This document shows, piece by piece, positions 53,573 through 57,228 of a DNA stretch of 64,000 nt (position 1 is the stretch's first letter; the number at the start of each line of letters is the position of its first letter). Source of the stretch: Maritalea porphyrae (GTDB lineage: Bacteria > Pseudomonadota > Alphaproteobacteria > Rhizobiales > Devosiaceae); assembly GCF_030159895.1 (NCBI RefSeq), contig NZ_BSNI01000001.1:274663-338662 (forward strand), in the 5' to 3' direction. The notes under the pieces were generated by a model that had not been told where the DNA came from, made no database searches, and saw nothing but the letters and a program-made list of their open reading frames with translations. The position numbers were made by a program, and so were the translations under genes.

Positions 53573-53706
53573 AAAAAAAAGGTCCCGCCAGCTTGTGTGG
53601 CAGGACCTTTGAATAAGTGGGCAGACATCGAGGGAGGAGGGACGGTGTCTGCCGTAATACGAGTTAACTTCGAGGGAGGAGGATACGTCGTCAACTCGTT
53701 ATGTGA
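53573..53706 (-). ncRNA. Anti-Shine-Dalgarno small RNA, copy 1 (alpha-r14/cuckoo-like)
   Basis: Read on the minus strand from about 53706: hairpin 1 (53659-53699) with stem ACGAGTT-type arms and loop TATCCTCCTCCCTCGA; hairpin 2 (53620-53653) with stem GGCAGACA/TGTCTGCC and loop CCGTCCCTCCTCCCTCGA; then a Rho-independent terminator, GGTCC/GGACC (53581-53607) plus eight T. Both loops show CCTCCTCCC, complementary to the Shine-Dalgarno sequence. Three hairpins with two such motifs is the layout of alphaproteobacterial alpha-r14 RNAs (NfeR1 of Sinorhizobium). Likely blocks translation of several mRNAs. Confidence 0.8.
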
Positions 53707-53708
53707 TG

Positions 53709-53738
53709 TATATGGGGCACCCGAGGCGGTTTAACAAG
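53709..53738 (-). promoter_or_regulatory. RpoH-like promoter of small RNA copy 1
   Basis: Minus strand CTTGTTA, 14 bases, CCCCATATA, then the small-RNA 5' end a few bases on. CTTGAAA-N11-16-CCCCATNT is the sigma-32 consensus, so this is a near match. Copy 2 keeps CTTGT and CATATA at the same spacing but has GG for the CC before CATATA. Confidence 0.5.
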
Positions 53739-53852
53739 CGCAGCCTTTGCATATATGGTATGCGTTTTGTGCATGGCGTGTAGTTGGATGCCCAGTTTTG
53801 TGGCGGATAGGGCGCTAGATTTTGAAAAACTGCATAGCTCGTCTTTATTGGT

Positions 53853-54122
53853 ATGTCCTTCAAGTTGTCACGACGATTTTGCCACCTGCGCGGTTATCTT
53901 CCATACATTGTTGCTGCCGAAAAGATACGATCAGGTACGTTAGTTGAAGTGTTGGAAGACTGGCGATTTCCAGAGGTTGGTTTGTATCTTGCCCACAATG
54001 GTCGCCGGCATATGCCAAGACAGGCGCGGGCCCTAATTGAACATGCTGCAATGTTTGCAAGATCGATGCGTAATGCTGAAACAAATAAAGGCTCCGTCGA
54101 GGGGGACGGAGCCTTTGAATAA
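53853..54122 (+). pseudogene. LysR regulator C-terminal remnant
   Basis: The frame reads '...GYLPYIVAAEKIRSGTLVEV' and then 'LEDWRFPEVGLYLAHNGRRH', 'MPRQARALIEHAAMFA', which is the end of a LysR effector domain (usually P.y.va..l.sG.Lv.vL.dW...lY.vyp..rh.p...ra.id). Everything upstream of about codon 10 is not LysR-like, and the tail runs into the terminator of small RNA copy 2. So about 230 residues, including the HTH, are missing. It sits between copies 1 and 2. Confidence 0.7.
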
Positions 54123-54212
54123 GTGTGGCAGACATCGAGGGAGGAGGGACGGTGTCTGCCGTACTACGAGTTGACTTCGAGGGAGGAGGATACGTCATCA
54201 ACTCGTTATGTG
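54081..54212 (-). ncRNA. Anti-Shine-Dalgarno small RNA, copy 2
   Basis: Nearly identical to copy 1 through both hairpins: hairpin 1 54166-54206 (nine-pair stem ACGAGTTGA/TCAACTCGT, loop with CCTCCTCCC), hairpin 2 54127-54160 (GGCAGACA/TGTCTGCC, same loop). The terminator stem differs in sequence (GGCTCCGTC/GACGGAGCC, 54090-54113) and is followed by TTTATTTG, a weaker T-run. The differing terminator with conserved loops shows selection on the loops and structure. Confidence 0.8.
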
Positions 54213-54295
54213 ACTTATATGCCTTCTCAACTGCCGAACCACAAGCGGCGAAACCGCATACTAGCCATGCACAGAATGCATGGTGTGCGATGGGC

Positions 54296-54405
54296 AAAAA
54301 AAAGGCTCTACCCAAAAGGATAGAGCCAGAAAAAATTAGAGGAAAACTCTAACAAGGAGGGAACAACGAATGAGTTGAGGGAGGAGGAACAACTCGTCTC
54401 GTTTT
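54296..54405 (-). ncRNA. Anti-Shine-Dalgarno small RNA, copy 3 (diverged)
   Basis: Minus strand: hairpin 1 (54372-54395), stem GAGTTG/CAACTC with loop TTCCTCCTCCCT; an unpaired TTCCCTCCTTG; a small stem TTAGAG/CTCTAA (54336-54352); terminator GGCTCTATCC, TTTT loop, GGGTAGAGCC (54304-54327) and eight T. The first anti-Shine-Dalgarno loop is kept; the second motif is shortened and exposed outside a hairpin. Upstream TTGTCA-17-CATATA could be a housekeeping-type promoter, unlike copies 1 and 2. Confidence 0.75.
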
Positions 54406-54728
54406 TCTTGCGGCGTATATGATGGGTGTTTTACTTTTTGACAACCATGCTGAGCGCATGCCGGGTATGCGTTTGTCGCATGGCTGTTGCATTTTGCATG
54501 TATTCCAGTGCGTTAGCCAAAAAGGAACGCCAGAAAAAATATTTGATTATGTGCATATTGTTGGCCGTGATTTAGGCAGATGACGATGGAAATGTTGCGA
54601 ATTCGCAGTATTTGCGCCGGTGGTTCAGGAAATTTTAAGCGGATTAGGGCGCGAGGTGTTCTGCTTGCGACACAAGTCTAGACAATGTAAACATCTGGAT
54701 ATCTCAAAAGTCAGCTTGGATTTTAGAA

Positions 54729-55382
54729 TTGACGAAGAAGGCCGACAATTATCATCACGGGAATCTACGCCAAGCGATGTTGGATGCTGCGGCCGCGATA
54801 TTGGCGGAAGATGGACTTCAAGGTCTGACGTTGCGCGCTTGTGCGCGAAAGGCGGGGGTGTCACACGCTGCTCCGGCACACCATTTCAAAGGTTTGACCG
54901 GTTTGCGCACGGCAATTGCTGCGGAAAGCTTTCATATGATCGCGGCGTTGGCTGAAAAAGTGTTCGCGCAAAATGATGGCAATGCGGCAATTCTGTTGCG
55001 CGACTTTGCTGTGGCTTACTCAAGCTTTGCAAAAAACAAACCTGAGCGATTTCGATTGATGTTTCGCCGTGACCTGCTCGACATTGACGATCAAGGTTTG
55101 TGCGACGCAGAAGAGCGAGCCTACACAACATTTGTGAACATCGTTCATGCGGTGCGTGGCGAAGAAGCTGGCACTTTGGCAGAGTTTCGTGAAGGCAAAC
55201 TGCCCAAAGAGTTGTATTCAGACATCACGCTTTATTGGAGCGTGGTGCATGGGTTTGCGCATCTAAATATCGAGCGGCAATGGGATGGGTATGGCGAAAT
55301 AATGGGGGCAAAAGATTTCGAAACTGAGATATTGGCAGACATTACCCGCCGGATAGTGCCGACTAAGAAACCCAACGACTAG
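54729..55382 (+). CDS. TetR/AcrR family transcriptional regulator
   Basis: 217 residues from a TTG start. HTH at about 10-58: 'NYHHGNLRQAMLDAAAAIL' then 'GLTLRACARKAGVSHAAPAHHF' (part). C-terminal ligand domain of the WHG/TetR_C type ('FAVAYSSFAKNKPERFRLMF'). Convergent with the LysR gene, stops overlapping by four bases. Target unknown; no transporter is adjacent. Confidence 0.9.
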   Translation: MTKKADNYHHGNLRQAMLDAAAAILAEDGLQGLTLRACARKAGVSHAAPAHHFKGLTGLRTAIAAESFHMIAALAEKVFAQNDGNAAILLRDFAVAYSSFAKNKPERFRLMFRRDLLDIDDQGLCDAEERAYTTFVNIVHAVRGEEAGTLAEFREGKLPKELYSDITLYWSVVHGFAHLNIERQWDGYGEIMGAKDFETEILADITRRIVPTKKPND

Positions 55383-56275
55383 AATTCCCAGCCGCGGGCT
55401 TTGGACACCAAGAAGTCTCGAAAAACGCCGACGCGCTTTGAATTCTTCAACGCTGGTGGGTAGACGAAATAGGTTTCGAATTCCGGCATTTCAACCGTAT
55501 CGAGAATGCGCACAAGTGAGCTTTCATCTTCGGTGATGTAGTCGGGCAGCATCGCAATGCCAATGCCTTCGCGGCAGGCCTGCATCATGCCATAAATCGC
55601 GTTGACGCGAAGCGCAGGAATGCGCGGGTTGTTCTCTGGTCGGCCGATGGTCTCAAGATAATTCACATCGCCCAAATAGGCGGGGCTTGGATTGCCAAAG
55701 GTGATGATCTTGTGATTATCGATATCATCTACGCTTTTGGGAATGCCGTGCTGCTCCAAATAGGCGGACGAAGCATAAAAGTGGAAGTGCACCGTGAATA
55801 GTTTGCGTTGAATGAGTTCGGATTGGTTTGGCCGATGCAAGCGGATCGCTACATCAGCCTCGCGCATCGCAAGATCAAGTTCAGAATCGTTGAGTTTAAT
55901 TTCCAACTGAATTGTTGGATATCGCTCAAGAAACTCATCAATCCGCGACGTTAGCCAGGTCGAGCCAAATCCAACCGTGGTTGTTACAAGCAACGGACCC
56001 GTGGGCTGATCGCGAGTTTCGCTCATTTGAGCTTCAACGGATTGCAGCTCCCACGCCATTCTGTGAGCGGTTTTGAACAATTGTTCACCAACTTCGGTCA
56101 TCACCAGCCCGCGCGCGTGGCGAATAAAGAGCTTCAGACCAAGACCTTCTTCAAGCGAAGACACTTGTCGGGAAACCGCGGATTGGCTCATGCCTAACCG
56201 TTCGCCGGCATGGGTGAAGCTTCCCGCTTCCGCCACCACATGAAAAATCCGCAGTCGGTCCCAATCAATGCTCAT
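55379..56275 (-). CDS. LysR family transcriptional regulator
   Basis: 298 residues. N-terminal winged HTH: 'DWDRLRIFHVVAEAGSFTHA'-type start (residues 4-23) and 'LGMSQSAVSRQVSSLEEGLG'. Effector domain from about 90. The first base of its ATG region touches the last base of trxB (shared position 56275), so it is co-transcribed behind trxB, an arrangement common in Rhizobiales. The trxB link suggests a redox role, but this is inference. Confidence 0.93.
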   Translation of the reverse strand: MSIDWDRLRIFHVVAEAGSFTHAGERLGMSQSAVSRQVSSLEEGLGLKLFIRHARGLVMTEVGEQLFKTAHRMAWELQSVEAQMSETRDQPTGPLLVTTTVGFGSTWLTSRIDEFLERYPTIQLEIKLNDSELDLAMREADVAIRLHRPNQSELIQRKLFTVHFHFYASSAYLEQHGIPKSVDDIDNHKIITFGNPSPAYLGDVNYLETIGRPENNPRIPALRVNAIYGMMQACREGIGIAMLPDYITEDESSLVRILDTVEMPEFETYFVYPPALKNSKRVGVFRDFLVSKARGWEF

Positions 56276-57228
56276 TATTCAGCCGCTTCCGCTACATCAA
56301 GTTCGGCTAAGAACTTTTCAGCTTCAAGCGCTGCCATACATCCCATGCCAGCGGCGGTTACCGCCTGGCGGTACTTATCGTCCGTCACATCACCAGCAGC
56401 ATAAACGCCAGGGATGTTGGTGGCGGTGCTATCTGGTGCGGTGACCAGATAGTTGCCTTGTTTCATTTCAAGCTTGCCTTCAAACAAGGAAGTTGAAGGG
56501 GCATGGCCAATGGCGACAAAGATACCGTCGCAAGCCTTTTCAGTGATTTCGCCCGTGTTGCGATTTTTCAATTTCGCACCGGTTACGGATTTTGGAATGC
56601 CCGATGTGCCCAAAACCTCAACAAGTTCGGTGTCCCACATCACGTCGATCTTTTCATTGGCAAAGAGACGTTTTTGCAGGATTTTCTCTGAACGCAGCTC
56701 GTCGCGGCGATGCACCAAAGTCACTTTTGAGGCGAAGTTAGTTAAGAACAATGCTTCTTCAACCGCGGTATTGCCGCCGCCGATTACAAGCACTTCTTTG
56801 TCTTTGTAGAAGAAGCCATCGCAAGTTGCGCAAGCGGAAACGCCAAAGCCTTGGAACTCTTGCTCAGAAGGCAAGCCAAGCCATTTAGCTTGCGCACCGG
56901 TGGCGATGATCAGTGCATCACAGGTGTAAATGGTGCCGCTATCGCCTGTGAGCTCAAATGGACGTTTGTCCACGTCGACATTGACGATCATATCGGAAAC
57001 GATTTTTGTGCCAACATGCTCAGCTTGAGCTTTCATTTGCTCCATTAGCCACGGGCCCTGGATCTGTTCAGCAAATCCAGGGTAGTTTTCGACTTCTGTA
57101 GTGATCGTAAGTTGGCCACCAGGCTGAATGCCTTGGATAATGACCGGCTCCAGCATGGCGCGTGCAGCATAAATTGCTGCTGAATAACCTGCGGGACCAG
57201 AGCCGATGATCATGACGGGTGCGTGCAT
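56275..57228 (-). CDS. trxB: Thioredoxin-disulfide reductase
   Basis: 317 residues. FAD site GSGPAGYSAAIYAAR at 9-23, redox-active CATC at 133-136, NADPH site VIGGGNTAVEEA near 150, and the C-terminal FAD motif 'GVYAAGDVTDDKYRQAVTAAG'. Reduces thioredoxin with NADPH. Followed at once by lysR. The 3' overlap with lysR is tight, so lysR output tracks trxB. Confidence 0.97.
   Translation of the reverse strand: MHAPVMIIGSGPAGYSAAIYAARAMLEPVIIQGIQPGGQLTITTEVENYPGFAEQIQGPWLMEQMKAQAEHVGTKIVSDMIVNVDVDKRPFELTGDSGTIYTCDALIIATGAQAKWLGLPSEQEFQGFGVSACATCDGFFYKDKEVLVIGGGNTAVEEALFLTNFASKVTLVHRRDELRSEKILQKRLFANEKIDVMWDTELVEVLGTSGIPKSVTGAKLKNRNTGEITEKACDGIFVAIGHAPSTSLFEGKLEMKQGNYLVTAPDSTATNIPGVYAAGDVTDDKYRQAVTAAGMGCMAALEAEKFLAELDVAEAAE

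Follow-up and report, generated by a model that had tools for sequence, protein, structure and literature searches.

A probable LsrB/VtlR-activated cluster of anti-Shine-Dalgarno small RNA genes in Maritalea porphyrae, combining an AbcR-like unit with two ar14 (NfeR)-type units

Work on rhizobia has treated the small RNAs (sRNAs) AbcR (ar15) and NfeR (ar14) as two distinct families whose target classes overlap, and tandem anti-Shine-Dalgarno (anti-SD) RNAs, the location of AbcR at lsrB and the control of both RNA types by LsrB are all already known. The gene order reported for Agrobacterium is trxB-vtlR-abcR1-abcR2, where VtlR adjoins and activates abcR1 (PMC7486931), and LsrB is described as activating AbcR1 via the site GCAT-N3-TG-N3-T at -61 to -49 (PMC8844928). 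The AbcR RNAs of Brucella are reported to expose two motifs in single-stranded form, M1 (CUCCCA) in hairpin 1 and M2 (GUUCCC) in the interval from hairpin 1 to hairpin 2 (PMC5461406). NfeR1 is activated by LsrB as well, via TGCA-N6-GCAT, and according to the same report the anti-SD motifs of the Sinorhizobium meliloti RNA silence ntrB, with target candidates that are mostly ABC transport systems (PMC10746234). In the same species, Hfq is reported to bind AbcR1 and AbcR2 but not NfeR1 (PMC8844928).

The locus described here places units resembling both of these RNA types side by side. It lies in a window of 64,000 nucleotides of the Maritalea porphyrae contig NZ_BSNI01000001.1 (assembly GCF_030159895.1, positions 274,663 to 338,662), to which all coordinates below refer. 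We consider it likely that it represents an LsrB/VtlR-activated cluster of anti-SD sRNAs, i.e. a trxB-lsrB/vtlR-abcR locus extended by two genes of the ar14 (NfeR) type. On the minus strand, at about 53573-54415, there are three sRNA units, with copy 3 transcribed first, copy 2 second and copy 1 last. The motif CCTCCTCCC occurs at 7 sites in the 3.35 Mb genome, 5 of which fall inside the array and on the same strand (positions 53632, 53674, 54139, 54181 and 54379); the remaining 2 do not lie in loops of comparable hairpins. Folding energies (MFE) correspond to z-scores of -7.73 for copy 1, -7.97 for copy 2 and -6.20 for copy 3, with no equally good shuffle among 200 for any of them, and a scan of 1.1 kb for terminators returned 5 terminator-like sites, 3 of which end the units, where shuffles averaged 1.2 (sd 1.2). 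When the window was taken together with 20 loci of the host family, CCTCCTCCC was found in a hairpin loop in 117 of 118 copies in single-sequence folds, as opposed to 41 of 118 after shuffling of the flanks (one shuffle per copy). The three-unit array is real and far above chance, and folding, motif census and terminator scan agree in upholding the preliminary description of this stretch as three minus-strand units with CCTCCTCCC loops and Rho-independent terminators. The same description had called the stretch gene-free, which does not wholly apply: between copies 1 and 2 there is a plus-strand ORF (53853-54122) that matches PF03466 over profile positions 153-204 of 209 (E 2.6e-6; 27.4 bits, cut-off 28) and that we read as the C-terminal remnant of another LysR gene, outside the system. 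An ORF also lies inside the array in the genus loci L004, L005 and L008, where it is LysE/RhtB-like (named by eye). Because an Rfam search at gathering threshold returned no match in the window, the units were classified with the help of sub-threshold matches and of a model of our own, R1, built on the family of copy 3.

Copy 1 (53573-53705, minus strand) and copy 2 (54080-54210, minus strand) are ar14-like sRNAs, as judged by RF02344 and covariation, each composed of two anti-SD hairpins and a terminator. Motif census and folds place CCTCCTCCC in hairpin 1 at 53674-53682 of copy 1 and 54181-54189 of copy 2, and in hairpin 2 at 53632-53640 and 54139-54147, respectively. The hairpins of the two copies are near-identical base for base and their terminators are unlike, exactly as had been described; the terminator scan locates that of copy 1 at 53578-53610, with a loop that lacks the motif, and that of copy 2 at 54087-54116, where the loop motif is degenerate and the RF02344 match extends over it. 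Each copy therefore has three hairpins with the CCUCCUCCC loop motif in two of them, one short of the three motifs that define ar14. Full-length matches to RF02344 (ar14) reach 47.9 bits for copy 2 (E 7.1e-7) and 43.2 bits for copy 1 (E 7.6e-6), both below the gathering score of 58.8, and the LsrB-type box TGCA-N6-GCAT is present upstream of both. By strict definition they are not counted as family members; they are ar14-like units that have lost one motif. Within the same genus, the third motif is kept in the terminator loop by one unit each in L004, L005 and L008; it is absent, as in copies 1 and 2, from L031, a locus of the genome whose LysR protein is the most similar (98%). Matches to RF02344 at E <=0.1 occur in 119 of the 136 host-family genomes, mostly two or three in each, and its cut-off is passed in 5 of the 136, three of them from the host genus.

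The ar14 (NfeR1) design that had been proposed for the whole array can be retained for copies 1 and 2, at the sub-cut-off scores just given, but not for copy 3, for which an AbcR-like design fits better, and the CcsR design proposed as its alternative is not supported, RF02791 scoring 22.0 and 21.3 bits where its cut-off is 65.3. Neither is the array a special case of tandem amplification, as had been thought, given that at least two ar14 matches per genome are usual in the host family and that tandem ar14 genes are also found elsewhere in the order. Three loci of other families (L119, L120 and L122) contain nine CCTCCTCCC motifs in about 3 kb, with tandem ar14 matches and no LsrB-like gene in the locus. 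Could copies 1 and 2 be decaying remnants that have no function? The third motif is gone from both terminator loops and a gene remnant has come to lie between the two copies; nevertheless, both anti-SD hairpins, the boxes, the predicted promoter cores and the terminators are present in each, and compensatory changes are seen among the members of the genus, which makes decay very improbable. Specifically, in a set of 12 aligned units of the host genus, one of them a partial unit, 5 of 20 pairs have changed on both sides, against a shuffle mean of 2.5 (2 of 500 shuffles as high).

Copy 3 (54296-54415, minus strand; start at about 54410 deduced from the -10) is an AbcR-like sRNA with three stem-loops, delimited with R1 and homologue folds. 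Its loop 1 bears CCTCCTCCC at 54379-54387 (motif census, folds), within which CUCCCU is unpaired and agrees with AbcR M1, CUCCCA, in 5 of 6 bases. The M2 sequence of AbcR, GUUCCC, occurs in the interval between hairpins 1 and 2 (54359-54364; sequence and alignment), and the terminator scan places the terminator at 54304-54327; the anti-SD loop 1 and the terminator stem are both features with which this unit had been credited from the outset. At E <=1, copy 3 is missing from the RF02344 matches, and RF02345 (AbcR/ar15) finds no match there at E <=10. Elsewhere in the same genome RF02345 does give a match of 20.6 bits, which was dismissed as chance, since 12 of 14 control genomes also match.

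The AbcR-like features of copy 3 recur in its homologues, 17 of which were aligned (copy 3 included). The anti-SD motif is unpaired in the first loop in 17/17, exactly three terminal loops are seen in 16/17 folds, and the M2 position reads GUUCCC in 14 and AUUCCC in 3 of the 17. The stretch UUCCCUCC that follows hairpin 1 is invariant (17/17) and absent from copies 1 and 2. It is fully unpaired in 1 of the 17 folds and paired in some part in the other 16, UUC being paired at the foot of hairpin 1 in most folds, with the next bases open. In copy 3 itself, the M2 sequence is unpaired if the RNA starts at 54405, and its UUC pairs with a 5' GAA if the start lies at 54408-54415. Covariation among the 17 homologues amounts to 19 of 34 pairs changed on both sides, against a shuffle mean of 11.8 (0 of 500 as high), a count that leans towards the structure tested, as this was derived from the same sequences. 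Numbers of further pair types did not rise above shuffles either for the copy 3 family (86 of 500 as high) or for the ar14-like set (201 of 500). With RNAalifold, nothing beyond the terminator and four pairs of hairpin 1 was recovered, since hairpins of different clades are misplaced in the MAFFT alignment; the structure used in its place was one projected from the folds of single sequences.

Is copy 3, then, merely a shortened ar14 copy, so that all three units are tandem-amplified copies of one ar14 or cuckoo (NfeR or CcsR) gene? All units have the CCUCCUCCC loop and a terminator in common, RF02344 matches copies 1 and 2, R1 cross-matches all three units, and part of the M2 stretch in copy 3 is paired. 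Against this, RF02344 stays silent on copy 3 at E <=1, the presence of UUCCCUCC between hairpins 1 and 2 sets copy 3 and its homologues (17/17) apart from copies 1 and 2, and copy 3 occupies the place of AbcR beside the LysR gene, for which reasons we regard a purely ar14 or cuckoo origin of the array as unlikely. A still less probable identity for copy 3, and one to which we give hardly any credence, is that of an MmgR (ar8) RNA. The first loop of MmgR is reported to bear an anti-SD motif too (PMC7143759), and RF00519 scores 31.2 bits at copy 3; this, however, is under the cut-off of 41 and less than the 32.8 bits obtained at C1:573383, matches at this threshold are also found in 13 of 14 control genomes, and both the neighbourhood and the box of copy 3 are those of AbcR. 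The site C1:573383-573443 (L033), outside the window, is the best RF00519 match of the genome, likewise sub-cut-off, and may be an MmgR gene. For copy 3, an AbcR-type RNA is a better reading than a copy of ar14: it has the position of AbcR and much of its build, but by the Rfam test it is no member.

How far does R1 extend this reading to other genomes? Copy 3 scores 94.2 bits, but it belongs to the training set of the model. Among 30 AbcR loci (L069-L098), R1 finds a match at the place of the RF02345 match in 25 at E <=1 and in 15 at E <=0.01, and its extra matches within these loci are solely the second RF02345 copies of L069-L071. The ar14-like units of the window reach 31.8-33.5 bits, which is above most AbcR loci; R1 is unselective and does not separate AbcR and ar14 types. 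In six loci outside the training set (L059, L060, L062, L064, L065 and L066) an R1 unit lies at or before the first exact motif, and L069-L072, AbcR loci of the same order that were found with RF02345, have the same plan. L086 combines a sub-cut-off match to RF02345 (37.5 bits against 40) with a full CCTCCTCCC loop. Array order and unit number vary across the host family; in L056, L059 and L060 a single-loop unit, by eye without GUUCCC, comes after the ar14-like units, which in L059 and L060 are also preceded by an R1 match.

Each of the three units is preceded by one copy of a 25-base LysR-type box, TGCR-N6-GCATRNC-N4-ATGC, at identical spacing to the -10. A pattern scan located the boxes on the minus strand at 54456-54480 for copy 3 (TGCGACAAACGCATACCCGGCATGC), 54256-54280 for copy 2 (TGCATTCTGTGCATGGCTAGTATGC) and 53749-53773 for copy 1 (TGCACAAAACGCATACCATATATGC). 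The promoter cores, predicted by eye on the same strand and all with a 17-base spacer, span 54417-54445 for copy 3 (-35 at 54440-54445, -10 at 54417-54422), 54217-54245 for copy 2 (-35 at 54240-54245, -10 at 54217-54222) and 53710-53738 for copy 1 (-35 at 53733-53738, -10 at 53710-53715); a scan for Escherichia coli-type promoters reported none on the array strand and thus missed all three. Exact matches to the box in the whole genome are confined to these three copies, from which the pattern was written and which therefore match by construction, and there are nine others at one mismatch; the reversed pattern gave 1. Of 59 regions that precede motif clusters, drawn from the window and 20 host-family loci (two of the 59 being stray motifs far from arrays), 30 contain a 24-base form of the box exactly and 46 contain it with at most one mismatch; after shuffling of the same regions 0 of 59 contained it with at most two mismatches. 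In other families, at most two box mismatches are seen in 14 of 30 AbcR loci, at 71-72 bases before the Rfam match, and in 8 of 30 ar14 loci, at 66-104 bases; on the opposite strand, taken as a control, two mismatches were reached in two loci and a better match in none. Counted from the box start, the -35 falls at 35-40 and the -10 at 58-63 in the three units and in the AbcR locus L069, and the ar14 loci L118 and L134 have the same -10 offset as the window units (all by eye); a -10-like match at offset 59 occurs in 41 of 50 host-family units that have a good box. The published LsrB sites (PMC8844928, PMC10746234) fall inside this box, in which the TG step of the LsrB site is replaced in the three window copies by TA, AT and CG and present in many relatives.

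In copies 1 and 2 the promoter elements CTTG (-35) and CATAT (-10) resemble the RpoH1 form given for PabcR2, CTTGAA-N16-CCTATAT (PMC8844928), and the CcsR RNAs are reported to be RpoHI/HII-driven (PMC10253847), so that heat-shock sigma factors might be thought to drive the units, as they do CcsR1-4 and AbcR2, with the LysR box being incidental. We rank this reading of the promoters low and find it quite improbable, however, because the sequence of the box and its distance are conserved across the host family and many AbcR loci, and because the cores agree in 8-9 of 12 bases, and in their 17-base spacer, with the RpoD form CTTGAC-N17-CTATAT described in the same source as the RpoH1 form (PMC8844928). 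The preliminary description had inferred distinct promoters and, from these, dose control or split regulation. Each unit does possess its own predicted promoter and terminator, but one box at one spacing recurs in all three promoters, which argues for one input rather than for split regulation.

The candidate activator is encoded next to the array, by an LsrB/VtlR-like LysR gene (55379-56275, minus strand; Pfam LysR domains) that lies, as LsrB/VtlR genes do, beside trxB. The latter name is a reading, based on a Pfam pyridine nucleotide-disulphide oxidoreductase domain and synteny, of the upstream neighbour at 56275-57228 (minus strand). Copy 3 is accordingly situated downstream of trxB-vtlR/lsrB, with a TetR-family gene (54729-55382, plus strand) inserted between the LysR gene and the array; in tblastn searches of the genus loci L049-L052, a homologue of this tetR gene was found in L052 (68% identity) and none in L049-L051. 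The LysR protein is 54% identical to the LysR encoded beside AbcR in L069-L072 and has a match at E <=1e-90 in 126 of the 136 host-family genomes, G095 and G058 having none at E 1e-90. LysR and trxB-like genes accompany the array in 20 of 20 host-family loci, which were chosen from ar14 matches. Among the best-scoring matches listed, 93 of the 93 host-family genomes that have ar14 and the LysR gene on one contig carry ar14 0.2-4.3 kb downstream of that gene and in the same orientation. In four further genomes of the family they are on different contigs, and in G062 ar14 also adjoins the LysR gene. Conservation at the same locus in relatives, on which the preliminary description had staked its reading, is therefore seen, in 20/20 loci and 93/93 genomes. 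Outside the host family, by contrast, the neighbour of the LysR gene is ar15, which among the best-scoring matches listed was at most 6 kb distant in 35 of 36 genomes, and ar14 was found within 20 kb of that gene in 0 of 52 genomes among the same kind of matches, the two being on one contig in 15 of these 52 and not in 37. Likewise, an LsrB-like gene is present in 22 of 30 AbcR loci of other families and in 0 of 30 of their ar14 loci, two of which hold a LysR of 29-30% identity. Clustering of AbcR-like with ar14-like units appears to be a trait of the host family among the families sampled.

The signal to which the regulator responds may differ from that of LsrB. Cysteines C144 and C273 are reported to be conserved among three LsrB proteins (PMC11975290); at positions 142 and 271, taken as the equivalents of the A. 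tumefaciens residues via the aligned cysteines of the LysR proteins of L069-L072, the window LysR protein has valine, and its one cysteine is at 234. Both cysteines are also absent from 6 of 6 other host-family members aligned and from L078. Redox input through these residues is therefore not expected, and their loss suggests, from the protein sequence, a changed input signal.

Onto the observed anatomy, conserved structure, box, spacing and synteny, the following scheme may be laid by analogy with the rhizobial work. The LysR protein, whose gene is some 1-2.5 kb distant, would bind the one box before each unit and thereby activate three separate short transcripts, each ending at its own terminator, the products being an AbcR-like RNA from copy 3 and an ar14-like RNA from each of copies 2 and 1. 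As proposed for their rhizobial counterparts, the CCUCCUCCC loops would pair with the Shine-Dalgarno regions of target mRNAs, as might the GUUCCC of copy 3, and such pairing would be predicted to block translation and to promote mRNA decay. ABC-transporter genes, along with others of metabolism, are the probable targets. It is conceivable, as a tentative extension that we hold to be somewhat less than evenly probable, that AbcR (ar15) and NfeR (ar14) go back to a single anti-SD RNA gene that was driven by LsrB and located next to lsrB. The cluster of the host family would then be either the ancestral one or one that has expanded again, its single regulator firing graded RNAs with one to three loops, and ar14 would have been scattered over the genome in other families. 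A common origin fits the equal spacing of box and core in L069, L118 and L134, the cross-matches between the RNA models, and L086.

As far as the literature search shows, the occurrence of both RNA types at one locus throughout a family is new: the titles and abstract starts covered contained no report of AbcR and ar14 together at lsrB, the cuckoo-family (PMC4615179) and AbcR1-modules (PMC4152367) papers lying outside its scope. Here the AbcR-like and NfeR-like units are adjacent, carry the same box and lie beside the gene of the regulator that controls both elsewhere. What is the significance of this arrangement? It offers a compact natural test of one regulator acting with several anti-SD RNAs, and a lead on the shared origin of the AbcR and NfeR families. 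It also exposes gaps in the present Rfam models, which leave the AbcR-like member at this locus undetected and score the ar14-like members too low in most of the host family.

Comparison with the described systems brings out both sides of each resemblance. With MmgR (ar8, RF00519), copy 3 shares an anti-SD loop and a terminator; unlike MmgR, it scores below the cut-off and has another neighbourhood and promoter. The CcsR1-4 or cuckoo RNAs of Rhodobacter (RF02791) are, like the units of the array, tandem anti-SD hairpin RNAs; those, however, are described as being cut from one RpoH-driven transcript together with a DUF1127 gene (PMC10253847), whereas here a separate box and a separate terminator belong to every unit, and a Pfam scan of five nearby ORFs found no DUF1127. 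NfeR1/ar14 (RF02344) resembles copies 1 and 2 in its CCUCCUCCC-loop hairpins, LsrB-type box, own terminator and several copies per genome; copies 1 and 2 differ from it in keeping two of the three loop motifs, in scoring below the cut-off and in sitting at the lsrB-abcR locus. The AbcR1/AbcR2 locus (ar15, RF02345) of Agrobacterium, Sinorhizobium and Brucella has the same place beyond trxB and the LysR gene, a LysR box at the same distance and further sRNA genes in tandem, and its RNAs share with copy 3 the anti-SD loop 1, the GUUCCC after hairpin 1 and the three stem-loops. Copy 3 departs from these RNAs in its full CCUCCUCCC loop, in CUCCCU in place of CUCCCA, in a GUUCCC that is partly paired in folds and in being left unmatched by RF02345, and the locus as a whole departs from theirs in that the tandem neighbours are ar14-like genes rather than AbcR2.
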